From IMG/VR virus record IMGVR_UViG_3300036800_000149, positions 1-37,448 of that record: a stretch of 37,448 nucleotides of DNA; one strand, written 5' to 3'. The notes below the pieces were generated by a model, which did not search any database, was not told the DNA's origin, and saw only the letters and a program-made list of their open reading frames with translations. This DNA comes from a virus. The translations under genes and the position numbers were made by a program. Positions within the stretch are counted from its first letter, which is position 1; each line of letters opens with the position of its first letter. Positions 4,716 through 37,256 of the stretch are shown here, piece by piece.

Positions 4716-4718
4716 CCC

Positions 4719-5381: not shown

Positions 5382-5674
5382 GCCGACTCACTCCCCGCTG
5401 CGTCGATCATCGCCTGGTAAATATTGGTCGCTTCGACGTTGATTTCGTCCGGCACAAGGTAGTCATTGCCGGAGTGGTGGTCGCCACCCACCGCGCGCAT
5501 CGCCGCCGTCGGCTCGCGCATCGCGGCGATCACTACCCGCGCATCGTCGGTATAGCTGCGCCAAATCCCATCGATCCTCTCGGCTTGGCCCTCAGACAGC
5601 TCCGCCGCATCGCGCGGATGGTTAAAGTCGATCGCGACCAGAAGGCGCGCAACACGCTCGACCATCTCGTTCAT
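5372..5674 (-). CDS. Minus-strand 100-aa phage protein (moron-like)
   Basis: Starts at an ATG five bases after GGAGG and ends 10 bases inside the convergent tail-adaptor gene. It begins MNEMVERVARLLVAIDF, continues with AAELSEGQAERIDGIWRSYTDDARVVIAAMREPTAAM, and ends acidic (DEINVEATNIYQAMIDAAGSE). I recognise the pattern 'MVERVA-L... A-R-VIAAMREPT-AM' from many small hypothetical phage proteins of alphaproteobacteria. It faces against the virion operon and has its own ribosome site, so it was probably added as a separate cargo gene. Much longer antisense frames through this region are shadows. Confidence 0.65.
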   Translation of the reverse strand: MNEMVERVARLLVAIDFNHPRDAAELSEGQAERIDGIWRSYTDDARVVIAAMREPTAAMRAVGGDHHSGNDYLVPDEINVEATNIYQAMIDAAGSESAYP

Positions 5675-5800
5675 TCGTCCCTCCGAAGTGCTGCGGCCGC
5701 GAGGTTGGGCAGACCATTCCAGGGCCGGCGCTGATCCTCGCCAGAGACCGCGAACTCCGGGTTCCACGCGCGACCGCAGCTCACGAAGGATGGTTGCTGA

Positions 5801-8668: not shown

Positions 8669-8671
8669 CCA

Positions 8672-9187
8672 ATGTCCTCCGCGAGCCTCGCAACCACGGC
8701 GCTGTCTGCCGCGGGCACCGGCATGGCGGCTGGCGGCCAGCTTGCCGCCGGCGCACAGGCCGCGGCACTCGGTCGGGCACAAGCTGCGTCGCTGGGCGTG
8801 CAGGCCGGGCAGGAGGTCGCCCAGGGCACGCAGGACATCGCCAACGCGGCGCTGAACACGAAATACGTCATCTCGCAGACCCGCGGCGCGGCGGCGGCAT
8901 CCGGCGGCGTGGCGACCTCGCCGACCGTGGTCGGCCTGGAAGGCCAGATCGCCGCGCGCGGTTCGTATAGCGCGCTGGCGCAGATGTATGAGCAGCGGGA
9001 AAAGGCCAACGCGCTGAACTACCAGGGCGCGCTGGATATCTATTCCGGCAAGGTCGAACAGACCGCCGACCAGGTGAAGGCGTTCTCGACCGTGCTGTCA
9101 GGCGCGGGGTCGCTGGCGTCGAAATACGGCAATCCGGGCGGGGCGCAATCCGACGCTGTCCTGTACGGCGGCGAGCCCGGACCGTAA
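8672..9187 (+). CDS. Small internal virion protein (T7 gp14-like)
   Basis: 171 aa, GAGAGG about 9 bases before the start. Very Ala/Gly/Gln-rich and helical, with an N-terminal low-polarity stretch (AATTALSAAGTGMAAGG region) that could enter a membrane, and a central coiled-coil segment (SYSALAQMYEQREKANALNYQ). In podoviruses the gene directly before two very large internal proteins encodes the small injection protein that forms the outer-membrane part of the DNA ejection channel. The assignment rests on size, composition and order. Confidence 0.6.
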   Translation: MSSASLATTALSAAGTGMAAGGQLAAGAQAAALGRAQAASLGVQAGQEVAQGTQDIANAALNTKYVISQTRGAAAASGGVATSPTVVGLEGQIAARGSYSALAQMYEQREKANALNYQGALDIYSGKVEQTADQVKAFSTVLSGAGSLASKYGNPGGAQSDAVLYGGEPGP

Positions 9188-9190
9188 CCG

Positions 9191-11410
9191 ATGGCCGTTC
9201 AACTCCCCTCGCCGGAGAGCGTTCCGCTCGTTACGCCACAAGCAGCGGGGGGCGTCCCGTCGTTCGGTGGGGCGGAAGCGGCAACGCAGGAGCTGGCGGG
9301 CGCAGTCAGCGGACTCGGCGAGGGCCTGACGAAACAGGCTGATTTCATCCAGAGCCTTCGCAACGAGAACAACGCGCGGGATGCCTCGGTGCAACTCAAT
9401 GCGCAGATGGGGGCAATCACGAGCGCCTATCTCCAGAAACAGGGCAAGGCGGCAGACGACGGCTACGACGATTACACCGCGCAGTTGCAGGCGGCCCGAT
9501 CGAGCGCGGTTTCCGCGATGCCGAATCTCGAGGCGGGAAAGATGCTGGGCGATCAGGCCGCCTACATGGTGGACCGCTTTCAGCAAGAGGGTGTCCGCCA
9601 CCGTGGCGAGGCGATGACGCAATGGACCCGGCAGTCCTATGTCGGGAAGCTAGCCGATGCCGCGACCACGGCGGCGCAGAATTGGGGCAATCCCGAGCTG
9701 GTCGGCGGCCAAGTTGCGGTCGGCCAGGACGCGGCCAAAAGCCTGTTCGCGATCGACGGCGGCGACCCATCCAGCCCTGATGGCGCCGCCACGCTGAGGT
9801 CCGATATCGCCGGAGCGACCGACAAGGTGGTGGTGCCGGCTGTGCGGGTGGCCGCCGCATCGAACCCGGCGGCGGCCCAGGCGCTGGTGGATAAGTACGG
9901 GCCGAGCATGTCGGCGGCGGGGCTTGAGGAGGTCACCAGGGAACTGCACGTGAGCGCATCGAACGCGCAGGGCGTGTCGGTCGCGCAGCAAGAGCTGGCG
10001 AGGGCCGCGCAGCCGGGTGGTGGTGTGGCGCCGTCGAACGCAACGCCTGACCAGCTCAACGCCGCTTTCGAAGGCCAGGAAGGCACCGGAACCTCAGTGC
10101 AGGGCGCGGTTGCCGGCCTCATGCCGGGAACTTTCAAGCAGTTCGCACAACCCGGCGAGGACATCAACAATCCGACCGACAACGCCGTGGTGCGGCAGCG
10201 GATCATCGCGAAGTATTCCAGCGACTATCCGGGCGACCCGGCGCGCGTCGCGGTGGCGCTATTCTCCGGTCCGGGAAACGTGGCGCCGCCGGACAGCCCG
10301 GTGCCCTGGCTCCGCGACCCGAAGGATGGCAACGGCACCAGCACGTCGCAGTATGTGTCCGGCTTCCTTGGCCGGCTCACGCCGGGGCAGCCCGCGGCGG
10401 CTACGCCCGCGGAGGGCACGCCAGCAGCGGGCACACCGGCGACGGGCACGCCAGCGCCGCCATCCCGGTCCGATATCCTCATGCGCACCATCCAGGCGAC
10501 TGCGGGTAACCCGCTCGCGCAGGAGGCCGCGGTGCGCCATCTCGACATGGTGTTCCGCGCGCAGGACGCCGACCGGGTGGACGCCGAGCACGGCTATCAG
10601 GTGCAGCAGCAGGTCGCCAAGGCGGCGAGCGAGTCGGACGAAACCAAGGTGCTCGGCGCGCTGGGCAGCAATCCCGCCAGCGTCACGGCGCGGGACATTC
10701 TCAACCCGGCGGGGCCATACCCGCATTTACTGCCGGCCGCGCGCGAGAACATGGTCGCCTTCGTGGAACGGCAGACCAAGCCGGACCCGGCCGCTGCGGT
10801 GTCAGCGGCAACGGTGCAGGGCCTCGTCTCTGACGTTCGCGCCGGCAAGATCACCGACATGGGGCCGGTGTATGACGCATTCACATCCGGGCGGATGAAC
10901 CGCGCCGGCTTCGACTTCGTGCAGCAGCAGTTCAAGGATTTGCAAACCGACGCCGGCCAGCGGCTCGATCAGGAGCAATCGAAGTTCCTCGCCGCGGTGA
11001 GACCGTCGATCGACAAAAGCAATCCGCTGATGGGCAGTCTCGACATGAGCGGCGGCGTGAATTTCTTCCGGCTGCAACAGGATATTGCGAAAGACATCGA
11101 CGATTACCGCAAGGCCGGGAAGAACCCGCACGACCTGTTCGATCCGTCCAAGCCGGATTACCTCGGCAAGCCCGAGGCGCTGGAGCCTTACCAGAACTCC
11201 ATCGTCGAATCGATGGACGACATTTCCCGGCGCATGCACACCGGCAAGTACGCTCCAGCTGCACAACCCGCCTCACCGTCCCCGCCGCCGGCGACCCGCA
11301 CACCGGATCGCACAGTCGATGAGGGGTTCGGGCCAGCCCTCGTCCAGGGCGGTCCGGTCACGGCGCTGCCGCCGCTGCCACCGTTGCCGCCGATCCCGCG
11401 GCGGCACTAG
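9191..11410 (+). CDS. Internal virion protein with SLT-like transglycosylase domain (gp15/gp16 role)
   Basis: 739 aa. The first 280 residues are long Ala/Gln-rich helices. Around residues 286-400 is a transglycosylase-like region: AAFEGQEGTGTSVQGAVAGLMPGTFKQFA, then NNPTDNAVVRQRIIAKYSSDYPGDPARVAVALFSGPGNV, which follows the Slt pattern of a catalytic Glu, a 'S-x-x-GA-x-GLMP-T' motif and an 'A-x-x-x-GPG-V' end in place of AYNAGPG. The Glu near 291-294 is the probable catalytic residue. A Pro/Ala/Thr linker follows, then more helices and a Pro-rich tail. It probably digests peptidoglycan locally during DNA ejection. The usual Asn in AYNAGPG is replaced by Ser here, so activity is uncertain. Confidence 0.65.
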   Translation: MAVQLPSPESVPLVTPQAAGGVPSFGGAEAATQELAGAVSGLGEGLTKQADFIQSLRNENNARDASVQLNAQMGAITSAYLQKQGKAADDGYDDYTAQLQAARSSAVSAMPNLEAGKMLGDQAAYMVDRFQQEGVRHRGEAMTQWTRQSYVGKLADAATTAAQNWGNPELVGGQVAVGQDAAKSLFAIDGGDPSSPDGAATLRSDIAGATDKVVVPAVRVAAASNPAAAQALVDKYGPSMSAAGLEEVTRELHVSASNAQGVSVAQQELARAAQPGGGVAPSNATPDQLNAAFEGQEGTGTSVQGAVAGLMPGTFKQFAQPGEDINNPTDNAVVRQRIIAKYSSDYPGDPARVAVALFSGPGNVAPPDSPVPWLRDPKDGNGTSTSQYVSGFLGRLTPGQPAAATPAEGTPAAGTPATGTPAPPSRSDILMRTIQATAGNPLAQEAAVRHLDMVFRAQDADRVDAEHGYQVQQQVAKAASESDETKVLGALGSNPASVTARDILNPAGPYPHLLPAARENMVAFVERQTKPDPAAAVSAATVQGLVSDVRAGKITDMGPVYDAFTSGRMNRAGFDFVQQQFKDLQTDAGQRLDQEQSKFLAAVRPSIDKSNPLMGSLDMSGGVNFFRLQQDIAKDIDDYRKAGKNPHDLFDPSKPDYLGKPEALEPYQNSIVESMDDISRRMHTGKYAPAAQPASPSPPPATRTPDRTVDEGFGPALVQGGPVTALPPLPPLPPIPRRH

Positions 11411-11413
11411 CGC

Positions 11414-14400
11414 ATGGCCGATCCAGCCGCCGCTGCCGCGGGCGCCGAGCCGTCCGCGCCGCCGTTCGCGCCCGCGCCCGCGGCAGCGCCGCCGGCCCTG
11501 TCCTACCCCGACCAGGCGCGCGCGGCCGGCTACAGCGACGACCAGATCAATCAGTGGCTCGCGCCATGGATGGCCGATGCGCGCGCCAAGGGCTACTCGC
11601 AGGACCAGATCAACGCGCACCTGGGCATCGTGCCGCCGCCCGCGTTCGATGATGGCCCGGTGCGGTCCCAGATCAGCAGCAACCTCGCCGCGGCGGCCAA
11701 GCCGGTCACGTCGTTCGGCGATGCGCTGGAGGCTGGCTGGCAGCTCGGCAACGTCGGCATGGGAATACGCGGCGCGCCACCCTCCAAGACGGTCTCGCCC
11801 GACGCGCCCTGGGCGTCCCGCATCGCGGCGCAGACCGCGGAGCTGGCGGGCGATCTGCCGTCGATGCTCGGTGGGTTCTTCGTTGGCGCGGCGGGAGGCG
11901 CAGAGGGTGGTCCCCCGGGTATGGCGATCGGCGGAACGGCCGGCGCCATGGCGCTGCCGACGGCGCTGCGCGAGTTGATGATGGACAGCTACGCCAAGGG
12001 CCAGTTCACCAATTTCCGGGATTTCTGGTCGCGCGTTGCGCCGGTGATGATCGACACGGCGAAGTCGTGGGTCACCGGGGCTGCCACGGGAGCTGCCGGC
12101 GCCGGCGTCGGCGCGGCCGCGGGCACGGTACCGGGCGCGATCGCGGACTGGGCTCTCCCGGGTTCGATGCAGGCGGCCAAAACGGCCGCCGAAGTGGCGA
12201 CGATGACCACGGTCGGCGCGGCGATGGAAGGCCATGCGCCGGCCGCGATGGATTTCGCCAACGCCGCGATCGTGCTGGGCGGCGTGCACTTTGCCGGGGT
12301 TGGCGCGGTCAAGCTGCGTGATCTTTATGCACAGACCGGGATTACGCCGTCCGCGGTGGTCGCCGATGCTGCGCGCGATCCGACGATCGCGCAGGACATT
12401 CTGAGCGACAAGGCGATACCGGACGCCTACGCGGCGGCGGGGAAGGCGGCCGCGACGCCGGAACCCGAGGCGGCCAGGTCCGCTGCGGGCGAAGACGCTG
12501 GCGGCCAAGCCCCGCCCGGAGAGGCTGCTGCCACAACATCGGCCCGCACACCTTTCACTCCCAATTTTCCCGACGTGGTGATCCAGCGGCCGTACGGCTC
12601 GCCGGTGCGCTACATCGGTCATCCCGACTATGCCGCAGCGAAGGCGGGTGACCCGGAAGCGGCGGACCGCTTCGTTGATGACATGGTGGACCCGGCGAAG
12701 GTCAGCGAGCTACGTGCCGCGATCGGGGACAGCAAGCCAACCGTGGTTGCCGTGCATGCCGAAGAAGCGGCGGGCCGGAACGCGATCCCGGAAACCTACG
12801 CCAAGAAGTTGTCGGGCGACCTTGGGTTGCCGCTGGACGATGGCATTGTCCAGGCGAACAAGCCGCAGCGCACCGGCCAAAGCGCCGAATACCGCATCAG
12901 CGTGCATTCAGAGTTTGACGGTCCGGTAGAGCCGGGGCGCGATTACCTGATCGTGGACGACAACGTGACGCAAGGCGGCACGCTGGCCGACCTGCGGTCC
13001 TATATCGAAAGCCGTGGCGGGCGGGTGGTCGCCGCATCGACATTGACCGGCTCGCGGCAGAGCGAGATATTGGCGCCACGAGCCGGAACGATCGCGGCGT
13101 TGCGAGAGAAGTTTCCGGACCTCGAATCACGATGGCAAGGGACTTTTGGCCATGACCTCAGCGGGCTCACAGAAAGCGAGGCTGGCTACCTTCTCCGCTC
13201 CCCAACGGCTGACGCCCGCGGAGATCGAGTCATTGCGCGCGGACAAGCGGGAACTGCATCGCAAATTAGACGAAATCCACGCCCGCAAGGCGGCGGAGAA
13301 GGCTACGACGGAGAAGACGACGACGGAGAGCCACGCGGCGGAGACGGCGGCGGCGGAGTAACCCAGCCGCCTGGATCGGGCGGTCCTGGGCCTGCTGGCG
13401 GCGGCATGGGCGCGGCCGCCGAGGTTCTTGGCAAAGGCGATCTCTGGCGGCTTCCGCCCGAACAGCTCGACGCGATGCTGGAGGAAAAAGGCGCCTCCAA
13501 CCACGACAAGCTGGTACGCGCGCTCGGCAGTGAAGAAGCAGCAGCCGAGTTCAACCGGCTGGACCGCAAGCAGAACAGCAGCATCGGGAGCCGCGCCGAT
13601 GAAGGCGCCCGAGAGTTCGACGCCAAATTCGGCAATCTGACACCCGAGCAGGAACGGCTGATCTACGGCTTCGGCGAGACAGATGCCGCTGCGGACGACA
13701 TCAAGGCCGTGCTCGATGCGCACGGCAACCGGTCCGACGATCCCACCGATGCAGCCTATGAAGCGGCGATCGCCATCCGCCGGGTGCCGGCGGCCGACAT
13801 CATGGCCGTCCCCGAAGGGCATTCAACGGCAACGGCACAAGCCGCGTACGTTCGCCTGTCCAACGCCTACGAGGATATGCGAGCTGCCGGCATTCCCGGT
13901 GATCAGATTGGCCACGCCATCGCCGGCGCGCTCGTTAACCGCGGCGGCTGGAGTCCCGGTGACGCCGCGGAGGTCGTCGGAAGCTTCATGGAGAGAGTGG
14001 CGGCATCGCAGCCCGCCGCGCCGCGAGCGCCCCAGGCGATGCTGCCCGCGCCGGCCTCAGAAGGAGTGGCGCCGGCTGCCGTGTCCGTCACCACGCATGA
14101 GGTCTTGGACCGCCCGACATCGCGTCCGGACGAGGCGCCGACAGCCGGCGGCGTAGGCGGCGCGCCAGGAGCTCCCGGCACGCAAGGGCTGCTTCCTCTT
14201 CCGGAACCCGGCGCCGGCCCTCCCGCCACGCTCGCCGACGCGCAAAATCGCATCCTGGCGCATATCAGCATCGGCGAGCAGCCGCCGGCGCGCGGCTGGA
14301 GCTGGCGCGGCCTCTACACCAACCTGGTTGACCGGCTCTACCCGCTGGCGGCGGCCGTGAAGTCCGCCTCCGGTGGCGAGGGGCTGCCGGCGGCGCAGAA

Positions 14401-17233
14401 TGCCTACAAGCTGGCGCGGCTGATGTCTGGGGTCGCGGGCAAGGCCGACCGCATGCTCAACGGCGCCGGCACGTTTGATTTCAACAGCTACCAGGACACC
14501 GGCCCGTCTCTGAAGGCGATCCTGGCGCCGGTCGCCGACGATCTCGACGGGTTCCGCGCCTATCTCACCAGCGCGCGGGCGATCGAGCTGGAGGGCCGCG
14601 GCATCGCCACGGGCTTCGACATGCCGAGTGCGCAGCGCGTGGTCGCCGAGAGTGCCGATCGGTATGCCGAGCACGCCGCCAACCTGTTCGGTTTCCAGGA
14701 CCGCGTGTCGCAATACCTGCGCGACAGCGGCGTGCTGTCGGCGAGTGGCTATGCCGCCATGCGCGAGGCAAACCAGCTGTACGTTCCGTTCCAGCGCGTG
14801 ATGGATGACGTCGACGGCTTGGGCATCAAGCTGGCCGGCGGCGGTTCCCTGCAAGCGCGCAACCCGATCCACGCCATCCAGGGTTCGCAGCGCGTGGTGA
14901 TCGACCCGCTCGAGTCGATCATCCGCAACACCTTCCTGTTCACCCAGATGGCCGAACGGAACGCCGTCGGCACGCAGATGGCCGATATGCTGCTGCGCTC
15001 GTCCGCACACGAAGCAGCACCGGCCGAGACGCCGGCCGCGTCGGCTGCGGAGGTCGCGGCACTGCGCGACGCCGGGGTCGCGCATCCCGAGGACCTGGAG
15101 CCAATGATCGCCGGGGCCGCTCCACCGCGCGAGGGCGAGATCCGCATATTCAGGGACGGCAAACCGGAAACCTACCAGGTCGATGCCGACCTGGCCCGGG
15201 CCGTGAAGGGCTTGGACGGCGACACGATGAGCAACCTTGAGCGCATGCTGCGGCCCTTCGCGTCCGCGTTGCGCGCCGGCGCCGTGCTTCAGCCGGATTT
15301 CGTCCTGCGACATTCCCTCCGCGATTTCCTGTACGCCGCGGTCACCTCGCCAAGCGGGCTGTTCACCCCGGTTGACATGGCGCGCGGCTTCCTCGGCCTG
15401 GCGCGGCAGGACGCCGACTATCAGGAATGGCTGAAGACGGGGGGCGCGCAGGTTTCGATGGTCGCGCTCGATCGCCGCTACCTACAGCATTCGATCGACG
15501 ACCTGGCCGGCACGGGTTTGCTGGAACGGGCCTGGAACGTGATGCAGGATCCCGACGCATCAACCGCAGCGAAGGCGCGCGCGGTAGGCATGACGTTGCC
15601 GGCCGACGTGGCGCGCAAGTTCCTCATCTCGCCGATGCAGGCCGCGGTGACGTTCGCCGAAAGCGCGTCGCATCTCGGCGTGTTCAAGCAGCAGCTTCGC
15701 AGCATGGAGGCCGGACAGGAGGGCGGCGCGCCGCTGAGCAAGGCGCAGTTGCAGGAAGCCGGCTTCGTCTCGCGTGATACCGCAGTGGACGCCTCGCGCA
15801 TGGGCGCCAAGATGCGCACCTGGAACGCAGTGGCGGCGTTTTCGAATATTGCGATCCAGGACAGCGACCGGGTGATCCGCGCGTTCCGCGAAAGCCCAAT
15901 GAGCACGGCGATCAAGGTGGCCGGTGCGATTTCCCTCCCATCAGCGTTGACTTGGTGGAACGGCCACGGCGACAGCCGGTATGATGATGCGCCGAATTGG
16001 GAGCGCGACCTGTTCTGGGTGATCCCGACCGATCGGTGGCAGGATATCTCCAGCGAAGACTACGCCAAACAAACCGGCTCCGGGCGGCCAGCCGATCAGC
16101 TTCGTGTTGTTGATGGGCAGTATCAGGCGAATAACGGAATCACCGTCCGCATCCCGAAACCGTGGGGCATGGGCCTTGTGTTCGGCTCCGGGGTCGAGCG
16201 CACGCTGGACGCTTTCGTAGCGCACAAGCCCGATGCCTACGCCGAGTTCGCCAAGTCGATGGGTCAGGTCTCCGTGCCGAACCTGCTGCCGAACGCTCTG
16301 GTTCCGATGATGGAGCAATTCGCCAACCGCAGCACGTTCACCAATCGCACGCTTGTCCCGGACGAAATGGAGAAGTGGCTGCCGGAATACCAGTACACGC
16401 CTTACACAACGCAGACCGCGCGGGCACTTGGTCAGGCGCTCGGTGCGTTTCCCGGCATCAAGGATGCGCGGCTCGATCAAGGCGGCATGGGCGGCGTGGC
16501 GCGTGCTCTCACCTCGCCGATCCTGTTGGAGAATTACCTGCGCGGGTGGACCGGCAATCTCGGCATGTATGCATTGCAGCTCGCCGACGCCGGCTTGCGT
16601 AATGCCGGCATCGTTCCTGATCCCCCGATGCCAGCCTCGACGCTTGCAGACATTCCGATCGTCAAGGCGTTCGTCGTGCGCTACCCGTCGAGTTCGGCAC
16701 AGTCGATCCAGGATTTCGAAGACCAATACGCCGGCAATAAGGTATTTCTCGACACATGGCGGGCGATGGCGCGCAACGGCGACGCCGGCGCGATGGCGCG
16801 GATCAGCGCTGGCGCTCCTCCTGCCGCGCAGGCCGACATGAGTGGCGCCAACGCGCAACTGCTGCGGCTTGGCGTGACTCCTCCAGGTGCGGACAAGCGC
16901 ACCATGGGCAGCCTCTCGTCGCAGCAGACGCGCGCCACGACGGACGTGGAAACGCAGTCGCAGCTCGCCGGGATGCAGGTCGCGGCGATCCGGGCGAAGG
17001 CAACCGGCTTCGGTTCGCAGGTGACGGTTTCCCAACTGGACGACATCCACCAGGCGATCGGCGAGAATTCGCAGCTGGTGCGAGACATCAGCAAGAACCC
17101 AAACATTCCGCCGGACGAAAAACGCCAGCTCATCGACACGGCGTACTGGCGCATGGCCGAATTGGCACAGATCGGCAAGGCGTCGCTCGCCCAGGCATTG
17201 GGCAGCCCGACGGCACCAGGCGCCTTGCACTAA
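11414..17233 (+). CDS. Giant internal/injection protein with phosphoribosyltransferase-like domain (polyvalent protein)
   Basis: 1939 aa. Residues 30-75 contain two copies of a GYS-DQIN motif; residues 150-280 hold Gly/Ala-rich hydrophobic helices. Residues 388-580 look like a type I phosphoribosyltransferase: the PRPP-loop motif is YLIVDDNVTQGGT at about 510-523, preceded by a strand-helix region (PTVVAVHAEEAAGRNAIPETYA). A low-complexity acidic/Gly linker follows, then helical regions; residues 1280-1500 (VLRHSLRDFLYAAVTSPSG, AVAAFSNIAIQDSDRVIRAF) resemble a large polyvalent-protein associated domain of the LPD38 kind. Such proteins travel in the virion, form part of the ejection machinery, and deliver enzymatic domains into the host. 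The single open frame is intact. Confidence 0.75.
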   Translation: MADPAAAAAGAEPSAPPFAPAPAAAPPALSYPDQARAAGYSDDQINQWLAPWMADARAKGYSQDQINAHLGIVPPPAFDDGPVRSQISSNLAAAAKPVTSFGDALEAGWQLGNVGMGIRGAPPSKTVSPDAPWASRIAAQTAELAGDLPSMLGGFFVGAAGGAEGGPPGMAIGGTAGAMALPTALRELMMDSYAKGQFTNFRDFWSRVAPVMIDTAKSWVTGAATGAAGAGVGAAAGTVPGAIADWALPGSMQAAKTAAEVATMTTVGAAMEGHAPAAMDFANAAIVLGGVHFAGVGAVKLRDLYAQTGITPSAVVADAARDPTIAQDILSDKAIPDAYAAAGKAAATPEPEAARSAAGEDAGGQAPPGEAAATTSARTPFTPNFPDVVIQRPYGSPVRYIGHPDYAAAKAGDPEAADRFVDDMVDPAKVSELRAAIGDSKPTVVAVHAEEAAGRNAIPETYAKKLSGDLGLPLDDGIVQANKPQRTGQSAEYRISVHSEFDGPVEPGRDYLIVDDNVTQGGTLADLRSYIESRGGRVVAASTLTGSRQSEILAPRAGTIAALREKFPDLESRWQGTFGHDLSGLTESEAGYLLRSPTADARGDRVIARGQAGTASQIRRNPRPQGGGEGYDGEDDDGEPRGGDGGGGVTQPPGSGGPGPAGGGMGAAAEVLGKGDLWRLPPEQLDAMLEEKGASNHDKLVRALGSEEAAAEFNRLDRKQNSSIGSRADEGAREFDAKFGNLTPEQERLIYGFGETDAAADDIKAVLDAHGNRSDDPTDAAYEAAIAIRRVPAADIMAVPEGHSTATAQAAYVRLSNAYEDMRAAGIPGDQIGHAIAGALVNRGGWSPGDAAEVVGSFMERVAASQPAAPRAPQAMLPAPASEGVAPAAVSVTTHEVLDRPTSRPDEAPTAGGVGGAPGAPGTQGLLPLPEPGAGPPATLADAQNRILAHISIGEQPPARGWSWRGLYTNLVDRLYPLAAAVKSASGGEGLPAAQNAYKLARLMSGVAGKADRMLNGAGTFDFNSYQDTGPSLKAILAPVADDLDGFRAYLTSARAIELEGRGIATGFDMPSAQRVVAESADRYAEHAANLFGFQDRVSQYLRDSGVLSASGYAAMREANQLYVPFQRVMDDVDGLGIKLAGGGSLQARNPIHAIQGSQRVVIDPLESIIRNTFLFTQMAERNAVGTQMADMLLRSSAHEAAPAETPAASAAEVAALRDAGVAHPEDLEPMIAGAAPPREGEIRIFRDGKPETYQVDADLARAVKGLDGDTMSNLERMLRPFASALRAGAVLQPDFVLRHSLRDFLYAAVTSPSGLFTPVDMARGFLGLARQDADYQEWLKTGGAQVSMVALDRRYLQHSIDDLAGTGLLERAWNVMQDPDASTAAKARAVGMTLPADVARKFLISPMQAAVTFAESASHLGVFKQQLRSMEAGQEGGAPLSKAQLQEAGFVSRDTAVDASRMGAKMRTWNAVAAFSNIAIQDSDRVIRAFRESPMSTAIKVAGAISLPSALTWWNGHGDSRYDDAPNWERDLFWVIPTDRWQDISSEDYAKQTGSGRPADQLRVVDGQYQANNGITVRIPKPWGMGLVFGSGVERTLDAFVAHKPDAYAEFAKSMGQVSVPNLLPNALVPMMEQFANRSTFTNRTLVPDEMEKWLPEYQYTPYTTQTARALGQALGAFPGIKDARLDQGGMGGVARALTSPILLENYLRGWTGNLGMYALQLADAGLRNAGIVPDPPMPASTLADIPIVKAFVVRYPSSSAQSIQDFEDQYAGNKVFLDTWRAMARNGDAGAMARISAGAPPAAQADMSGANAQLLRLGVTPPGADKRTMGSLSSQQTRATTDVETQSQLAGMQVAAIRAKATGFGSQVTVSQLDDIHQAIGENSQLVRDISKNPNIPPDEKRQLIDTAYWRMAELAQIGKASLAQALGSPTAPGALH

Positions 17234-29799: not shown

Positions 29800-30027
29800 T
29801 CACTTTGCGGGCGCCGGCAGTTGGATGACGATCGGCGCCGGCGGTTCATGGTGCGCCCAGATCAGGTTGCCGATGCCGACCCCCGCACCGACCGCTGCGG
29901 CCGTGGCGAGGATGGCGGAGACGACGAACTTCCGGGTTTCCCACTTCTGGTCGTTGCGCAGCTTCTCGATGTTGATCGTCATCTGATCGATCCGGAGATC
30001 CTGTTCTTCCTGGTCGCGCGTGGTCAC
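29800..30027 (-). CDS. Small W-anchored membrane protein (paralogue 3)
   Basis: 75 aa, GTG start. MTTRDQEEQDLRIDQMTINIEKLRNDQKWETRK is a charged coiled coil, followed by one membrane helix (FVVSAILATAAAVGAGVGIGNLIW) and a tail PPAPIVIQLPAPAK. It shares the collar-helix-Pro tail plan with the plus-strand genes at 28338 and 28862. It lies between the two 78-bp repeats, so it looks inserted into the repressor operon. Confidence 0.6.
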   Translation of the reverse strand: MTTRDQEEQDLRIDQMTINIEKLRNDQKWETRKFVVSAILATAAAVGAGVGIGNLIWAHHEPPAPIVIQLPAPAK

Positions 30028-30091
30028 CGTCGCGCCTGGTTACGCCGGCACCCACGGGTCGCCCGCTCATGTTGGGCGACGCTCCCCTCCG

Positions 30092-30169
30092 TCACTCGGC
30101 CGCCCGCAACTGCCGCACGTTCACCGCACACCCTGGCCTAACCCGATTTTCTGCGACGCGGCCCCCCAC
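30092..30169. repeat. 78-bp direct repeat, copy 2
   Basis: Second copy of 29654-29731 (77/78). It encodes the C-terminal 25 residues and stop of the repressor. Confidence 0.9.
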
Positions 30170-30508
30170 GATAGGGCGCGTCGGGTCAGGTCCTTTCGGC
30201 CGGCGCGGTTGGGTGTGCTCCTGATACAGGCGACGGCCAGCCGGGAGTTGAGCGATCAGGTCGTCCAGGGAAAAGCCGGTGACCCGGCGCAGCGCCGCCA
30301 GGATCCAGAGCGGTGGCTCGCGCTTACCCATCTCATACAGGCGGTACCGTTCTTCCGGCCGGTCGCCGCTGATGCCGAGCATCTTGGCGAACTGCTTTTG
30401 CGTGAGGCTTCCCTGGCCCGTTTCCGTGCCGTAACGCGCGCGCGCGTCCCTTAGCGCAGCAGCGAACAGGCGCAGAGCTTCTTGTGTCGTGTGAGGGTCA
30501 TCGTCCAC
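30092..30508 (-). CDS. XRE-family phage repressor
   Basis: 138 aa, GTG start. After a charged N-terminus comes GSLTQKQFAKMLGISGDRPEERYRLYEMGKREPPLWILAALRRVTGFSLDDLIAQLP, a clear XRE HTH domain with an unusual insert (GDRPEE) in the recognition region. The C-terminus (GPDPTRPIVGGRVAENRVRPGCAVNVRQLRAAE) has no peptidase-like site, so induction would not follow the LexA/CI self-cleavage route. It is divergent from the Cro-like gene with two operators between, as in lambdoid switches. Likely binds CCAAC-N5-GTTGG. No clear ribosome site is seen. Confidence 0.8.
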   Translation of the reverse strand: MDDDPHTTQEALRLFAAALRDARARYGTETGQGSLTQKQFAKMLGISGDRPEERYRLYEMGKREPPLWILAALRRVTGFSLDDLIAQLPAGRRLYQEHTQPRRPKGPDPTRPIVGGRVAENRVRPGCAVNVRQLRAAE

Positions 30509-30521
30509 CGGGGCAGTCTTG

Positions 30522-30536
30522 CCAACAAATAGTCGG
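30522..30536. promoter_or_regulatory. Operator OR2
   Basis: CCAAC-AAATA-GTCGG, one mismatch to the dyad CCAAC-N5-GTTGG. Lies just upstream of the repressor start, so it may serve autoregulation. Its centre is 45 bp from OR1. Confidence 0.55.
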
Positions 30537-30557
30537 GCGACACCCTACAATGTGTCC

Positions 30558-30586
30558 TTGACTTGTCCAACATATCGTTGGATGGT
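30558..30586 (+). promoter_or_regulatory. Rightward early promoter
   Basis: TTGACT (30558-30563), 17-bp spacer and GATGGT (30581-30586), in the same geometry as the leftward promoter. The spacer holds the perfect operator at 30567-30581. The predicted start (about 30593) is at the ATG of the Cro-like gene, so the transcript may be leaderless. Confidence 0.6.
30567..30581. promoter_or_regulatory. Operator OR1 (CCAAC-N5-GTTGG)
   Basis: Perfect dyad CCAAC-ATATC-GTTGG in the spacer of the rightward promoter, the same position relative to -35/-10 as OL1. Confidence 0.75.
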
Positions 30587-30593
30587 CGCGAAG

Positions 30594-30854
30594 ATGGCGA
30601 TCGCGGCATACCTAACCGAGCACGGTCTTACCGACGCTGAGCTGGCCAACCAGGTCGGCGTGAGCGCCGAACTCGTGCGACTTTGGCGCCACGGGCGCCG
30701 CACCATCTCAGCCAAGCGCGCAGTCGTAGTCTCGCGAGTCACCGGCATCCCTCGGCACGAATTGCGGCCCGACCTGTGGGAGCCGCCCGAATCCGCCCCC
30801 ACTCCCGAATCCGCCCCGAGGCGCCGCAAACGCGTGACGGCAGCAGCCGACTGA
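30594..30854 (+). CDS. Cro-like (YdaS-type) regulator
   Basis: 86 aa. MAIAAYLTEHGLTDAELANQVGVSAELVRLWRHGRRTISAKRAVVVSRVTGIPRHELRPDLW follows the YdaS/Cro pattern almost throughout: HTH at residues 11-32, then 'I-S-A-K-R-A' and the 'TGI-RHELRPDLW' ending. The tail is Pro/Arg-rich. No ribosome site precedes the ATG, in keeping with a leaderless start. It is the first gene of the rightward operon, divergent from the repressor, and should shut off the repressor promoter. Confidence 0.8.
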   Translation: MAIAAYLTEHGLTDAELANQVGVSAELVRLWRHGRRTISAKRAVVVSRVTGIPRHELRPDLWEPPESAPTPESAPRRRKRVTAAAD

Positions 30855-30903
30855 AACAAGAACCCCCGGCGCGGCGTTGCGACCGGCCGGGGGCCAAGGA
30901 GAA
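30852..30903 (+). repeat. Repeated hairpin/SD leader element, copy 1
   Basis: Begins at the Cro-like stop with TGAAACAAGAAC, then an 8-bp stem CCCCCGGC/GCCGGGGG, then CCAAGGAGAAA and the ATG of the next gene. Same order as copies 2 and 3. Links a stop codon, a hairpin and a Shine-Dalgarno site into one module. Confidence 0.7.
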
Positions 30904-31062
30904 ATGTCTGTGAGAGAAATGTCGCGCCCCGCCTCCCAACGACCACGCCCCAAACAGGGTGGTTGCAACATGATCCGTTGCGCTTCCTGGCGGTTGCCGC
31001 GGTGCGAAACCGTCGAGGCGCACGTGTGTGGCGACGACAGCCGGCTGGTGCGGACACCATGA
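30904..31062 (+). CDS. Cys-containing small early protein, 52 aa
   Basis: MSVREMSRPASQRPRPKQGG then CNMIRCASWRLPRCETVEAHVCGDDSRLVRTP. Four Cys in a CxxxxC / C / C arrangement may bind metal. The strong GGAGA ribosome site lies in the repeat just upstream. Function unknown; next gene starts in an ATGA overlap. Confidence 0.45.
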   Translation: MSVREMSRPASQRPRPKQGGCNMIRCASWRLPRCETVEAHVCGDDSRLVRTP

Positions 31063-31094
31063 GCGCCGCTGTCCACAACCCCGCCGCCGACTGA
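31059..31094 (+). CDS. 11-codon ORF
   Basis: MSAAVHNPAAD, ATGA-overlapped with the previous gene and ending at the TGA that begins leader copy 2. A coupling remnant is as likely as a real peptide. Confidence 0.25.
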   Translation: MSAAVHNPAAD

Positions 31095-31130
31095 AACAAC
31101 AACGGCCCGACCGTGAGGCCAAGGAAAACC
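31092..31130 (+). repeat. Repeated hairpin/SD leader element, copy 2
   Basis: TGAAACAACAACGGCC, short GGCC/GGCC stem, then CCAAGGAAAA and ATG at 31135. The shortest stem of the three copies, but the flanks are conserved. Confidence 0.65.
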
Positions 31131-31134
31131 TACT

Positions 31135-31260
31135 ATGGAAGCAGCGCTACCGCATTCGAAACCACCAAGGCCGGAACTCGATGTTTGCAATGCGCGACGT
31201 CACGTGAGCGACCGCGGGGACGCTGTCGCGCTGCGGCCAGGCCCCGAAGCGGTCGGTTGA
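31135..31260 (+). CDS. Small early protein, 41 aa
   Basis: MEAALPHSKPPRPELDVCNA, then RRHVSDRGDAVALRPGPEAVG. Bounded on both sides by copies of the leader element, so it is the cargo between repeats. No family recognised. Confidence 0.4.
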   Translation: MEAALPHSKPPRPELDVCNARRHVSDRGDAVALRPGPEAVG

Positions 31261-31311
31261 AACAACAACGGCCCTGCCCAGCGGCAACCGGACAGGGCCA
31301 AGCGGAGAAAC
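31258..31311 (+). repeat. Repeated hairpin/SD leader element, copy 3
   Basis: TGAAACAACAACGGCCCTG pairs as GGCCCTG (31270-31276) with CAGGGCC (31293-31299), a perfect 7-bp stem, then AAGCGGAGAAA and the GTG of the GcrA-like gene. It starts at the stop codon of the 41-aa gene. Confidence 0.7.
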
Positions 31312-31315
31312 GCAC

Positions 31316-32209
31316 GTGTTGCAGGCCGCCATATCGCCCCGTTCCTCATCCGTTTCCAGTGCCAAGTCCGTGTCCGCGGCGCAGGCCAACAGCCCCTGGC
31401 CGGAGCGCGTGCCCGACCTCGTCCGGCACCACGTCGCGGGACTGTCACCGTCCAAGATCGCAGCAACGATGGGCCTGACGCTCGGCCAGGTGTGCGGCCA
31501 GGTGCACCGGCTGAGACAGCAGGGCCGGTTGCTGGAGCGCGCCGTCCTGCCAACGCGCGGCGGTCCTGGCGTGGCGTCGTCGCCCGACGCCGAAGCGCAA
31601 CGCCGCGCGAAGCTCCGCGCGCGGGCGCTGGCGCGCAAGGCTGTGCCCTCGTCGGCAGCCGCCGTCGAGTCGGCTGCCCCCGAGTCCCCTGCCCCCGAAT
31701 CCCCTGCCATTGTCGCCGCCACCCCACCGTTGCGGCCCGACCAGGTCAACCCGCAATGGATCACCCCGGAATGGCCGCGCGAGAGGATCGTCCGGCTATG
31801 GAATCTCTGGACGGCGGCATCGCCGGTACTGGCCATCGCGCGCGAGCTGCGCACGTCGAAGAACGCCGTCGTCGGCACAGCCGGGCGCATCGGGCTGCCG
31901 TCGAGGCCGTCGCCGATCCGTCGGACCGACGCCCAGGCTGCCCCGAGTTCGCGCCCCACCGTCTCCATCGGCGCCGGCGCGACCCTGCCGCCCCTGGCCT
32001 CTGTCGTAGCGATCGACCAGACCCCCGCGCCGGCCGCGCCACGCCCCCGCCTCCCTGGGCAACGCGTCATCACCTGCTGCTGGCCGATCGGCGAGCCCGG
32101 CACGCGCAGCTTCCGCTTCTGCAACACCGAGTCCGAAGCCGGAAAGCCGTACTGCCCCGATCACGTCAAGATGGCCTACCGGCGGCTGCGGCCGGCGGAG
32201 GCGGCGTGA
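31316..32209 (+). CDS. GcrA-like cell-cycle regulator with two HTH regions
   Basis: 297 aa, GTG start after a GGAG site. Region 1 (about residues 23-62): PWPERVPDLVRHHVAGLSPSKIAATMGLTLGQVCGQVHRLRQQG; region 2 (about 150-190): EWPRERIVRLWNLWTAASPVLAIARELRTSKNAVVGTAGRIGLPSR. Both follow the GcrA HTH pattern 'W...R...L..L...G.S...IA..LG..T..AV.G...R.G'. The C-terminus (CCWPIGEPGTRSFRFCNTESEAGKPYCPDHVKMAYRR) matches the GcrA zinc-binding end. GcrA acts with RNA polymerase at CcrM-methylated promoters in alphaproteobacteria. The phage copy has a duplicated HTH separated by an Ala/Pro linker; it may redirect host transcription during early growth. Confidence 0.8.
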   Translation: MLQAAISPRSSSVSSAKSVSAAQANSPWPERVPDLVRHHVAGLSPSKIAATMGLTLGQVCGQVHRLRQQGRLLERAVLPTRGGPGVASSPDAEAQRRAKLRARALARKAVPSSAAAVESAAPESPAPESPAIVAATPPLRPDQVNPQWITPEWPRERIVRLWNLWTAASPVLAIARELRTSKNAVVGTAGRIGLPSRPSPIRRTDAQAAPSSRPTVSIGAGATLPPLASVVAIDQTPAPAAPRPRLPGQRVITCCWPIGEPGTRSFRFCNTESEAGKPYCPDHVKMAYRRLRPAEAA

Positions 32210-32625
32210 TGCACGCGCTCCGTTCCAGCCCGGCACTCCCCGCCGCGATCCCTGCCGGCCGCCTCGATCCCGTCGCGGCCTGGCGGGCGCTCCCTCTTCG
32301 TGCGCAGGAGGAGGTCGGCGCCGCGGCGATCGCGCTCACGATCGGCGTCATCGGCACCGACCTGACCGCCGCCCAGCCGTACCTCACCGCGATGCAGGAG
32401 GCGGCCGACTGGCTGCGTGCCCTGATCGAGGTCGCCGTGCTGGGCAACGCCGACGTCACGCAGCCGCCGCCCGTGCCGGATCTGAGTCCGTTCGGGATCC
32501 GCCAGTGCACCGGCTGCGGCTGCACCGACCACCACGCCTGCGCGGGCGGCTGCACGTGGATCGAGATCGACGGGGACCGGTGCACCGCGTGCGGGCCGGA
32601 AGCGGCGCGGGAGGCTCGGGCATGA
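32209..32625 (+). CDS. Zinc-ribbon phage protein
   Basis: 138 aa, start overlapping the GcrA-like stop (TGATG). The N-terminal 85 residues are helical (RAQEEVGAAAIALTIGVIGTDLTAAQPYLTAMQEAADWLRALIEVA). The C-terminus has the zinc pattern common in phage early proteins: IRQCTGCGCTDHHACAGGCTW then DRCTACG, about eight Cys/His. Often found beside replication genes; possible single-strand DNA binding or protein docking. Exact role unknown. Confidence 0.65.
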   Translation: MHALRSSPALPAAIPAGRLDPVAAWRALPLRAQEEVGAAAIALTIGVIGTDLTAAQPYLTAMQEAADWLRALIEVAVLGNADVTQPPPVPDLSPFGIRQCTGCGCTDHHACAGGCTWIEIDGDRCTACGPEAAREARA

Positions 32626-34097
32626 GCTGGGCAGCACTTCTCGATGCGCACGCTTTCGGTGACCTGCAAGCCGACCTCCAAGGCGTGCCCGCCCGCGCCG
32701 GGATAGCGTACGTGCATCTGATGGCGCGCCTGGGCCGCGTCGGCCCTGTGCCGTTTGAGGACGTCGTACTCGCGGCCGTGGCGGGAGTCGGCCTCAAGAC
32801 CTGGACCAACAGGATTTGGCCGATGATCCGGCACCTGTTCGACGTCGAGGACGGCTATCTGTGCCATCCCGGCATCGATGGCGCGCATGCCGTCCCGGCC
32901 GGCCCGACCGCCCGGCAGGCGTCGGCCAGCCACGCCGCCAGGACGCGCCACGAACGGGACCGCGAGCGGCGGCGCCAGCAGCTCAGCCTCATCACGGGCG
33001 ACGCTGCGCAGGATGCGGAACCCACCGCTGCGCATGCGCTGCGCACTGCGGAAGCGGGGTCTCCGCATGCGCTCCGCACTGCGGAGGAGGGGTCTGCGCA
33101 TGACCAAAACCCTGCGATTTCAATGCGCGGCGCAGAAATTTTTCGTGCGGAGAGCGCTGCTGCGCATGCGCCGCGCAGTGCGGAGGCGCCGGCTGCGCAG
33201 GCTCGCGTCGCGCTCGCGCGCACACACACGCACACACCCCTTTCTTCTGATTCTTCCCTTCAGTCTGGAGAATCTTCAGGGGTGGGTGAGTCTGGGAGGG
33301 GGTCCGGGGGAGGGATCGCCGCGTCCGCTCCGCAGGCTGCGCAGCGTGCGGAAACCCCTGCGCAGCTTCCTGCGGAGACCCCTGCGCACAGCCCTGCGCA
33401 GGTGCGCACGTTCGCCGCGCCGCGTGCGCCCAGGCCGGCTGCGCAGGCGCCAACGGCGCTGGCGCCGATCCCCGCCGACTGGCAGCCGAGCGAGCAGGAC
33501 CAGCGGGAGGCGCGCAAGCGCGGCTACGATCCGGACGAGGCGGCCGAGCGCTTTCGCGACGTCTACATTGCGAGCGGCCGGCGCGAAGCGAACTGGTCCG
33601 CGAAATTCCGCACTTTCGTGCGGCAGGGGATCAGCGGCCTGACGCCGCAGCAGTCGCCGCAGCGCGGCATGATGATGCCGATCGCCGGCGGCGCGGCGGG
33701 ATCCTCGGCCGCCATCCCCGCCGAGACCGCCGCCAAGGACCGCGCCACGGCGGCCTGGGTGGCGGCAGCCGAGGCGTGGCTCGCGGGTACTCCCTACGCC
33801 GCTGGCTGGGCGCGCGTGCGTGCGGTGATGCAGGCGGAGGTGGGCGACGTGGAATACCGCGCGTGGCTCGCCCCGATGGCGCTGGTGGGCGCCGCCGGCG
33901 ACGCGGTGACGATCGGGCTGCAGACCCGCTTCACGCGCGATCAGGTACAACGCCGCTTCGGCGCCCGGCTGGCGGCGCTATGGCGGGCCGAGAACCCGGC
34001 GGCCGACCGGATCGACTTCGTGTTCCAGGTGCTGGCGGAGGCGTCTCCGGCGGCATCGGAGCGGGCGCGGGGGCCGCCGGACGCCCTGGCGGGCTGA
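32622..34097 (+). CDS. Replication initiator with DnaA-N-like C-terminal domain
   Basis: 491 aa, ATGA overlap with the previous gene. Residues 1-95 form a winged-helix-like domain (LMARLGRVGPVPFEDVVLAAVAGVGLKTWTNRIWPMIRHLFDVEDGYLCHPG), like phage O-type initiators. Residues 105-125 are basic and coiled (HAARTRHERDRERRRQQLSLI). Residues 133-266 are low-complexity and come from the repeat-rich DNA. The C-terminal part (about 375-465: TAAWVAAAEAWLAGTPYAAGWARVRAVMQ... YRAWLAPMALVGAAGDAVTIGLQTRFTRDQVQRRFGARLAALW) fits a DnaA N-terminal domain, which binds helicase and DnaA partners. The gene holds candidate origin iterons within its coding sequence, as lambda O does. Confidence 0.75.
   Translation: MSWAALLDAHAFGDLQADLQGVPARAGIAYVHLMARLGRVGPVPFEDVVLAAVAGVGLKTWTNRIWPMIRHLFDVEDGYLCHPGIDGAHAVPAGPTARQASASHAARTRHERDRERRRQQLSLITGDAAQDAEPTAAHALRTAEAGSPHALRTAEEGSAHDQNPAISMRGAEIFRAESAAAHAPRSAEAPAAQARVALARTHTHTPLSSDSSLQSGESSGVGESGRGSGGGIAASAPQAAQRAETPAQLPAETPAHSPAQVRTFAAPRAPRPAAQAPTALAPIPADWQPSEQDQREARKRGYDPDEAAERFRDVYIASGRREANWSAKFRTFVRQGISGLTPQQSPQRGMMMPIAGGAAGSSAAIPAETAAKDRATAAWVAAAEAWLAGTPYAAGWARVRAVMQAEVGDVEYRAWLAPMALVGAAGDAVTIGLQTRFTRDQVQRRFGARLAALWRAENPAADRIDFVFQVLAEASPAASERARGPPDALAG
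33028..33184. other. Candidate origin of replication: five 33-bp units
   Basis: Inside the initiator gene, near-identical 25-bp sequences start at 33028, 33061 and 33160 (each 23/25 to the first; core CGCATGCGC then CGCA-TGCGGA). Two degenerate units fit the same 33-bp step at 33094 and 33127; the latter carries an A/T-rich core (AAATTTTT). In protein they encode 11-residue repeats (AHALRTAEAGS, PHALRTAEEGS, AHAPRSAEAPA). A helically phased iteron array inside an initiator gene is the arrangement of the lambda origin. Confidence 0.6.
33331..33410. repeat. Second repeat cluster in the initiator gene
   Basis: CCCTGCGCA occurs at 33356, 33380 and 33392, with related CTGCGCA words between. Shares the TGCGCA core of the iterons; it encodes Ala/Pro/Glu-rich protein. 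May extend the initiator-binding region. Confidence 0.45.
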
Positions 34098-34102
34098 CGT
34101 GC

Positions 34103-34336
34103 GTGCGCCGGATCGTGCTGGGGACCGCGGTGATGCTGTGCATCACGGTCCAGGGCGATCCGGCCGGCCCGCGGATGGTGGAGGGCGTGGTGATCGAGAT
34201 CGTCGGGAAGGGACGCCTGCCGCGCACGCTCCGGGGCACCCGGGCCGCCCGGGCGCAGGCGACCCGCTACGTGGTGCAGTGCGCCGGCTGGCGCTGCCTG
34301 CTGCGCGGCTGTCGCCTGGTGGTGGTAAGCCGGTGA
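34103..34336 (+). CDS. Small replication-region protein, 77 aa
   Basis: VRRIVLGTAVMLCITVQGDP, then MVEGVVIEIVGKGRLPRTLRGTRAARAQATRYVVQCAGWRCLLRGCRLVVVSR. The frame starts at GTG 34103; an in-frame ATG at 34133 is an alternative. A small beta-rich, basic protein with three Cys near the end. Function unknown; a GTGA overlap leads into the next gene. Confidence 0.5.
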   Translation: MRRIVLGTAVMLCITVQGDPAGPRMVEGVVIEIVGKGRLPRTLRGTRAARAQATRYVVQCAGWRCLLRGCRLVVVSR

Positions 34337-34620
34337 CACGCGATCCCCCCGCGCCGCTCTTGGGTGCCCGGTTCGGGGTGCCCCGTCTCTACCCCTGGCA
34401 GCGCGTCATCCTGCGCCTGGTGATCGCCATGCCAGGCGCGACGGCGCGGGAGATCGGCGAGCGGTACTACCCGGCCGGCAACGCGACCCTGCGCCAACAG
34501 GCGGCGCTGCACGAACTGCGGATCCTGGAGCGCGGCAACCTGGTGCAGCGGCATCGCGGCTGCTGGTCGCCGGCGCTGCTCGCGTCCGAGGCGCTGCGAC
34601 AAAACGGGCGGCGCGCGTGA
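34333..34620 (+). CDS. Winged-helix DNA-binding protein
   Basis: 95 aa, GTG start overlapping the previous stop. YPWQRVILRLVIAMPGATAREIGERYYPAGNATLRQQAALHELRILERGNLVQRHRGCW has the helix-turn-helix-wing order of a small winged-helix regulator: helix 1 at VILRLVIA, recognition helix near AALHELRILE, wing at LVQRHRGCW. Probably binds phage or host DNA. Coupled to the following gene by GTGA. Confidence 0.6.
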   Translation: MTRDPPAPLLGARFGVPRLYPWQRVILRLVIAMPGATAREIGERYYPAGNATLRQQAALHELRILERGNLVQRHRGCWSPALLASEALRQNGRRA

Positions 34621-34959: not shown

Positions 34960-35550
34960 ATGAGCCGGCGGTCGCGTCCCACGACCGCTGCCGTGCCGGC
35001 TCGCGCGGATGACGCTGCCCCCGCTGCCCGCTGGACGCACGGCCAGGAGATCGACCCCCCGGTCGCGCCCCGCATGCCGTCATGCGTCGCATCGGGTGTC
35101 TGGCTGCTGCGCCACGCCGACCCGCCGGCGATCGGCGATGCGGAGGTGGTCGCGGCCGACCGCTTCCGGGTGGACTACATCCGCGGCGTCGAAGGTGTGC
35201 GCGAACCGAGCCTGGCGCAGCGCAGCGGGAGCGCGGACCACCACGACGTCCAGATCATGCGCGCCGAAGCCGTCACCCGGCACCGCGAGATCAGCGAGGT
35301 GATCGGCCCGCGGATGACCGATTGGCTGGTGGATTTCCTGGTGCTGGATCTGTCGTTCGTGGCGATGGCCGACCGGCACTGGCCGGGCGACGCGGGACGG
35401 AAGGAGATGCGCGGGGCGATGGCGACGATGCTGCTGCTGCTGTCGCGGTTGTATGCGGCGATCGACCGGCGCAAGCCCAAACCGGGCGATGGCGGGTTGC
35501 GCGCGGTCGCGGTCGCGGTGCTGACCGAGCCGGAGGGTGCGGCCGACTGA
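34960..35550 (+). CDS. DUF6456-like phage regulator (tentative)
   Basis: 196 aa. The first 40 residues are Arg/Pro/Ala-rich. The core, VAADRFRVDYIRGVEGVREPSLAQRSGSADHHDVQIMRAEAVTRHREISEVIGPRMTDWLVDFLVLDLSFVAMADRHWPGDAGRKEMRGAMATMLLLLSRLY, resembles DUF6456-type proteins of alphaproteobacteria in its 'RF/LR-DY-RG', 'R...I-E-VIGP' and 'WP...K' elements. It follows an inverted-repeat promoter and ends the rightward early block, the position where phages often carry late-gene activators or antiterminators. Function inferred. Confidence 0.5.
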   Translation: MSRRSRPTTAAVPARADDAAPAARWTHGQEIDPPVAPRMPSCVASGVWLLRHADPPAIGDAEVVAADRFRVDYIRGVEGVREPSLAQRSGSADHHDVQIMRAEAVTRHREISEVIGPRMTDWLVDFLVLDLSFVAMADRHWPGDAGRKEMRGAMATMLLLLSRLYAAIDRRKPKPGDGGLRAVAVAVLTEPEGAAD

Positions 35551-36473: not shown

Positions 36474-37256
36474 ATGCCCCGTCCGCGGTCTCAGATGGCC
36501 GCTGGCGACGCGTCGCGGGCACCTTCGTTCGTCGCGTATTATCGGGTTTCCACTGCGGCACAGGGTATTAGCGGCCTTGGGCTTGAGGCGCAGACGGCGA
36601 CGGTCGGGGCTTACGTTGCGTCGGCGCACGGAGAAATCGTCGCCAGCTACCGCGAGGTCGAATCGGGCAGCCGCAGCGACCGGCCGCAACTCGCGCTGGC
36701 GCTGGCCGCGTGTCGGGCCCGGCATGCCATCCTGGTCATCGCGAAACTCGACCGGCTGGCGCGCGACACGGCGTTCCTGCTGTCGGTGGTGCGCGGCGCG
36801 GAGTCGGGGGTCGTATTCTGCGACCTGCCGCAGCTCCCGCCCGGGCCCGCGGGCGCCTTCATTCTCACGATGTTCGCCGCCGTCGCCGAGCTCGAGCGCG
36901 GCCTGATCAGTCAGCGCACCACGGCAGCGCTTGCTGCGGTCAAGGCGCGCGGCACCTGGACTTCAAAGGCAGGTCGCGTCTGCACCAGGCTCGGCAGCCC
37001 GGCGCTGTCGCGCGGGTTCGACGCGGACATGAGCCGCGCTGGCCGCCAGGCGCAAACCGATCGCGCGGCGCGGCATTCGTCCGACGTCCTGCCTTATATC
37101 GATGCGGCAATTAGAGCCGGTGCAACCTCGTATCGTCAAATCGCCGCGGCACTGACCGCGCGCGGCATCCGGCCGCCGTCTGGCGGCGACGCCTGGCACG
37201 CCAGCCAGGTGCACCGCATCGCCGCCGGCCGCCGCGCCGCCCTTCCCCCTCCTTGA
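36474..37256 (+). CDS. Serine recombinase (resolvase/invertase family)
   Basis: 260 aa. The catalytic domain is clear: FVAYYRVSTAAQGISGLGLEAQ has the nucleophilic Ser in YRVST; ESGSRSDRPQLALALAACRARHAILVIAKLDRLARD provides the LDRLAR motif; AFILTMFAAVAELERGLISQRTTAAL is the dimerisation helix. The C-terminal part (QIAAALTARGIRPPSGGDAWHASQVHRI) is a DNA-binding HTH region as in site-specific recombinases of the resolvase-like group. A second recombinase type beside the tyrosine integrase; it may invert DNA or resolve multimers. No flanking inverted repeats for inversion were recognised. Confidence 0.85.
   Translation: MPRPRSQMAAGDASRAPSFVAYYRVSTAAQGISGLGLEAQTATVGAYVASAHGEIVASYREVESGSRSDRPQLALALAACRARHAILVIAKLDRLARDTAFLLSVVRGAESGVVFCDLPQLPPGPAGAFILTMFAAVAELERGLISQRTTAALAAVKARGTWTSKAGRVCTRLGSPALSRGFDADMSRAGRQAQTDRAARHSSDVLPYIDAAIRAGATSYRQIAAALTARGIRPPSGGDAWHASQVHRIAAGRRAALPPP

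Follow-up and report, generated by a model that had tools for sequence, protein, structure and literature searches.

Early Genes and the Domains of the Initiator

The window, meaning the whole stretch of DNA analyzed here, comprises the 37,448 bases of an IMG/VR virus record. Among its genes are those for the major head protein of a phage, for tail proteins, for an integrase, and for recombination; its virion region also holds an ORF of 1939 aa (11414–17233) that matches phrog_9854 and phrog_22413, neither of known function. The divergent early region begins with a CI-like repressor gene on the minus strand (30092–30508; phrog_8/2328, E 3e-4 and 3.5e-3). The rightward early operon follows on the plus strand in the order Cro/YdaS-like regulator (30519–30854; PF15943, E 3e-8, above the cut-off), GcrA-like cell-cycle regulator (31316–32209; PF07750, E 2e-27), small ORF, and initiator gene. 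The phage-borne GcrA-like regulator has an additional HTH region at its N-terminus. The initiator gene (32622–34097, plus strand), recognized from its ORF and its Pfam and phrog matches, starts at an ATG that overlaps the stop of the upstream ORF and encodes 491 aa. It stands where lambda has O, beyond the repressor and Cro genes among the early genes read rightward, in line with the lambda O layout claimed from the letters alone.

The initiator protein matches the replication initiation protein families phrog_1408/1032 (E 8.5e-6 and 7e-5), and its AF2 model comprises a confident region at residues 8–90, a long helix (97–125), a disordered linker (126–276), a small helical domain (280–340), and a C-terminal domain (367–470). 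The N-terminal winged helix (residues 8–90; 32643–32891, plus strand; pLDDT mostly 86–93), the presumed iteron binder, is of the DUF1376/YdaU type: its top fold matches in the predicted-structure library BFVD are DUF1376 phage proteins (E 4e-7), and by alignment it is homologous to viral DUF1376 proteins and to gp330 of Acetobacter phage phiAX1 (BCZ75893), itself a PF07120 match (E 1.8e-19). Because the domain alone scores 14.5 bits against PF07120, below the gathering threshold of 30.1, it is named DUF1376-like here and not a PF07120 member. The model and the fold matches together uphold the initial annotation's claim of a winged helix at this end of the protein.

Beyond the linker lies a DnaT-like domain that the initial annotation had not listed (residues 280–340; 33459–33641, plus strand); it is a high-confidence helical domain in the AF2 model, is matched by phrog_1408 (E 8.5e-6), aligns with phiAX1 and viral relatives, and matches PF17948 (DnaT) below the gathering cut-off (E 0.035; 14.3 bits versus 25). 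The C-terminal DnaA-N-like domain proposed earlier is confirmed as DnaA domain I (residues 388–470; 33783–34031, plus strand) by a PF11638 (DnaA_N) match well above the cut-off (E 4.8e-13; 49 bits versus 24.6) and by a fold match to 4tps (Z 9.9 over 82 residues). The initiator is not a full DnaA: domain I alone matches, the AAA+ domain III and DNA-binding domain IV are absent, and the TIGR00362 match covers positions 1–81 of 437, far under the cut-off. The window's domain I resembles that of bacterial DnaA in sequence, fold, and the residues W6, E21, and F46 (E. coli numbering), but it lies at the opposite, C-terminal end of its protein and has Q in place of W50. Searches of PDB sequences gave no relevant match. 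The domain make-up of the protein is thus established by computation.

Iteron Arrays and A/T-Rich Segments in the Linker-Coding DNA

The linker-coding DNA carries two arrays that share a hexamer, TGCGCA or TGCGGA, or its complement. The left array (33005–33199), the densest cluster of short-range repeats in the window, is built of 33-bp units with TGCG[C/G]A boxes at +0, +11, and +18; in the good units the box at one of these positions is once CGCGCA. The earlier description of three 25-bp copies and two degenerate ones in a 33-bp step was accurate: the copies at 33029, 33062, and 33161 match the consensus TGCGCATGCGCTGCGCACTGCGGAG at 24, 23, and 23 of 25 positions (pairwise identities 22, 22, and 21), and degenerate units at 33095 and 33128 hold the register. 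No exact match to the consensus occurs in any other viral contig searched, and conservation of the iterons among close relatives is thus not traceable. The repeats translate as 11-residue units (HALRTAEAGSP / HALRTAEEGSA / ... / HAPRSAEAPAA) within the disordered linker, a further point on which translation and the disorder predicted at 126–276 agree with the initial annotation. The right array (33329–33445), which that annotation did not list, has TGCG[C/G]A boxes spaced mostly 9–12 bp apart. Counting both orientations there are 22 boxes in 33000–33449; in 33001–33450 TGCGCA occurs 12 times and TGCGGA seven times, versus 0.3 and 0.2 predicted from the rest of the window.

Between the arrays lies an A/T-rich segment (33234–33281), which is followed by a G-rich run (33279–33313). 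Its A/T fraction is 0.52, versus 0.33 ± 0.03 expected from its codons (z 6.0; 0 of 5000 recodings), and we regard it as the best candidate for an unwinding element. The A/T-rich core noticed earlier does exist in units 3–4 of the left array (33102–33149; A/T 0.48, z 3.8 versus synonymous recoding), but it is not the strongest such element, the one at 33234–33281 having gone unlisted. Similarly, the candidate origin proposed inside the gene was given too small an extent, 33028–33410; with the second array it covers about 33005–33445.

Most boxes share one codon phase, which could mean that a protein repeat had dragged the DNA along, and recoding nulls were run for this reason. Synonymous recoding with the phage's codon usage gave 2.7 ± 1.2 boxes and permutation of the region's own codons 5.3 ± 1.9, versus the 22 observed (0 of 5000 in each case); when the best hexamer was re-chosen for every shuffle, the observed 19 exceeded a null mean of 7.5 and maximum of 14 (0 of 2000). 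A looser measure allowing one mismatch per box stayed within the synonymous null (55 versus a mean of 46 and maximum of 60), so the signal sits in the near-exact boxes. Box counts and A/T excess beyond the synonymous nulls therefore show selection on the DNA itself. The repeats are constrained as DNA beyond what the protein requires, as in the lambda ori inside gene O, and the codon tests on boxes and A/T segments support the view that the in-gene iterons are a DNA feature.

These tests bear most directly on the idea that the repeats are a by-product, with no function as DNA, of a low-complexity Ala/Glu/His linker expanded by codon-level slippage. The single codon phase of most boxes, the predicted disorder of the linker, and the ease with which recent duplication could give 33-bp tandem steps all fit it. 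Box count and repeat identity nevertheless exceed the recoding nulls, the boxes at 33040, 33073, and 33403 stand in another codon phase, the A/T excess of 33234–33281 falls outside the repeats, and relatives with another winged helix have unrelated repeats at the same place; we consider this explanation very improbable indeed.

Initiators often autoregulate, and the boxes might instead form an operator for the early operon, bound by the initiator or another phage regulator, with replication starting elsewhere. Palindromic sites such as CTCCGCACTGCGGAG, found in the left array at 33072, are typical of dimeric regulators. An operator role is nonetheless hard to square with arrays that begin at least 380 bp into coding sequence, where, as throughout 30000–34500, no sigma-70-like promoter was found; it leaves the A/T-rich segment between the arrays unexplained, and two multi-copy arrays would be unusual for an operator. 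We rate it as improbable.

The second densest repeat cluster in the window lies between convergent genes at 1380–1651 and consists of two blocks of ~130 bp, 77% alike over 95 nt, each of which opens with GGGCGCCCGAAGGCCCC and follows a 5-bp beat of NNNCC (GTGCC GCGCC CTGCC GAGCC ...). It is conceivable that these blocks are a rival origin or a structural element. GC skew is uninformative at 37 kb in a temperate phage.

We read the layout of the initiator gene as an iteron array, an unwinding element, and a second array, and the pattern of the DNA makes it likely that the arrays function as an origin. The lambda ori likewise lies midway within O and combines iterons with an A/T tract (PMC7466680). 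The window's initiator shares with lambda O and its ori the mid-gene iterons, the A/T-rich tract, and an N-terminal winged helix; it differs in its DUF1376-type N-terminus, in the two arrays that flank the A/T segment, in the additional C-terminal DnaA domain I, and in having no recognized P-type loader nearby.

Fused Relatives and the DnaA Domain

Relatives of the initiator exchange its modules. Searches with exact peptides from the whole initiator found nothing in viral or genome contigs, and a profile of DnaA_N only found no viral relative; profile searches recovered DUF1376 relatives that lack DnaA_N, and none of forty relatives of the capsid protein, many of them fragments, matches the initiator. 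The phiAX1 protein gp330 is of the former kind: it has the same winged helix followed by a DnaT-like domain, but at 283 aa it has neither DnaA_N nor clear linker repeats. Four fused relatives were found, one from a cellular genome (L180; genome G336, the one fused relative in profile searches of 299, 348, and 385 genomes) and three from viral contigs (L181–L183). Like the window's initiator, they have a linker with repeats, a DnaT-like domain, and DnaA_N at the C-terminus; in contrast to it, their winged helix belongs to another family (HTH_36, PF13730) and their repeats, at the same linker position, are palindromic (GGTGC...GCACC). A synonymous test of these palindromic repeats was uninformative, since GAxSAP residues nearly force them.

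The HTH protein of Roseomonas marmotae plasmid p1318-7 (NZ_CP061098; L187) has the same lambda-O-like build, with a winged helix, palindromic repeats in the linker, and a DnaT-like part, but its winged helix is of the HTH_36 type and another C-terminus replaces DnaA_N; the domain is therefore swappable. This exchange of modules among relatives is a plain result of the comparison. In the linkers of L180, L181–L183, and L187 the palindromic repeats give way at once to conserved tandem AACCACCAAAG-like repeats and then to a G-rich run, and the plasmid carries a CRISPR-Cas locus (4632–13884) annotated partly as type I-D. A serine recombinase gene lies downstream in both architectures: that of the window (36474–37256) is 62% identical to the one downstream of the L181 initiator and ~50% identical to those of Roseomonas plasmids. 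Similarity between the window's gene at 34960–35547 and the gene after the Roseomonas plasmid initiator was looked for and not found. In ~18 of 57 O-like initiator genes, the internal repeats surpass every one of 300 synonymous permutations, so in-gene repeats are common in the class. What is exceptional in the window is the DnaA fusion, not the lambda layout.

A search with DnaA_N gave matches at E < 1e-10, mostly over residues 390–470, in 232 of the 249 genomes covered from Acetobacteraceae, the family of Roseomonas sp. SXEYE001; among 385 genomes sampled across the entire class, only four matched a related profile at E < 1e-18. The best local identities, ~50–60%, are to Acetobacteraceae DnaA. 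The top matches were considered as fused initiators and rejected: every one of the 30 loci inspected resembles chromosomal DnaA, and 29 of them have a Walker A motif (the exact pattern is missing in one, L141). Because of the difference between family and class, the phage domain is, judged by its sequence, of Acetobacteraceae type, and the phage host probably belongs to that family.

In E. coli DnaA, W6 serves dimerization, E21 and F46 contact DnaB, and W50 contacts DiaA (PMC5448010). The window's initiator has W396, E411, W415, and F437 as equivalents of W6, E21, W25, and F46, and Q441 at the W50 position; the conserved DnaB-contact residues are thus a matter of observation. In the W50 column, 55 of 56 chromosomal DnaAs have W, the window's initiator has Q, and its four fused relatives have H; since one chromosomal DnaA (L126) shares that H, the loss of W50 does not count as wholly independent evidence. 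In a DnaA_N tree (91 columns) the window's domain, a long-branched and unresolved row, falls apart from those of L180–L183, which suggests two separate captures of DnaA_N. It is possible, and is put forward only tentatively, that Acetobacteraceae phages and elements fused DnaA domain I at least twice onto lambda-O-like initiators with in-gene origins, that DnaB is recruited directly so that a loader gene is not needed, and that loss of W50 lets the fused domain escape a brake exerted by the host.

A Possible Route to Replication Initiation

The reading we favor, as somewhat more probable than its competitors taken together, is that the initiator gene holds its own origin and that the DnaA domain I of its product loads host DnaB without a phage loader. 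We infer initiator binding, melting, and helicase recruitment in the following form. The N-terminal winged helix would bind the TGCG[C/G]A boxes of both arrays in the linker-coding DNA; the resulting complex would strain and open the A/T-rich segment at 33234–33281, and perhaps also that at 33102–33149; and the DnaT-like domain would handle the exposed single strand. The C-terminal DnaA domain I would then bind host DnaB, pair initiator molecules, or do both, so that loading of the host helicase would not call for a phage-encoded counterpart of lambda P or DnaC.

That the DnaA module recruits the helicase is plausible on the strength of its sequence, the more so because the DnaB-contact residues are conserved and no loader is recognizable. 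No ORF of the window makes a convincing helicase or Walker-A loader, and none of the three ORFs directly downstream of the initiator gene was recognized as a loader, although a P-like protein without a Walker motif could escape detection; the downstream ORFs, mostly of no known function, could hide a loader, and the viral contig may be incomplete. Counting against this part of the reading, phiAX1 has the same type of initiator without DnaA_N, clear in-gene repeats, or an annotated loader; the group can therefore do without DnaA_N, and lack of a loader does not set the fusion apart.

The same observations can be accommodated if the origin lies in the gene but the DnaA domain only self-associates or contacts host DnaA or regulators, DnaB being loaded by host DciA. 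All five fused proteins retain the equivalent of W6, phiAX1-type relatives do without the DnaA domain, and most bacteria, Caulobacter among them, load the helicase by the DciA route (PMC12547741). Set against this are the equivalents of E21 and F46, the DnaB-contact residues of E. coli, which are also kept, the replacement of W50, the contact for DiaA, and the finding that no DnaA box with one mismatch or fewer lies near the arrays. On balance we think this arrangement unlikely, if a good deal less so than an operator or slippage. DciA itself (DUF721), a helicase loader that binds DnaB, has a KH-like fold that matches the same part of the window's model, and the lower fold matches of the DnaA_N part include a structure of DciA bound to DnaB (8a3v, Z 6.1). 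This likeness is only suggestive, as ribosomal KH-like proteins score the same; no sequence similarity to DciA was detected, and weak fold likeness of this sort is common to unrelated KH-like proteins.

In-gene origins and DUF1376 initiators are already known kinds. No paper on a phage initiator carrying DnaA domain I was found in open-access full text; one phage entry in BFVD bears the name 'DnaA N-terminal domain containing protein' (A0A6J5SN45), so such proteins have already been annotated. The fusion bears on the question of how DnaB reaches the origin of phages that lack a DnaC- or P-like loader in hosts that use DciA. It offers a minimal natural system in which a single protein and its 1.5-kb gene may combine recognition of the origin, melting, and recruitment of the helicase, and the contact between DnaA domain I and DnaB becomes testable away from oriC. 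The exchangeable modules, namely a winged helix with matching iterons, a DnaT-like domain, and DnaA_N or another tail, show how these initiators evolve.
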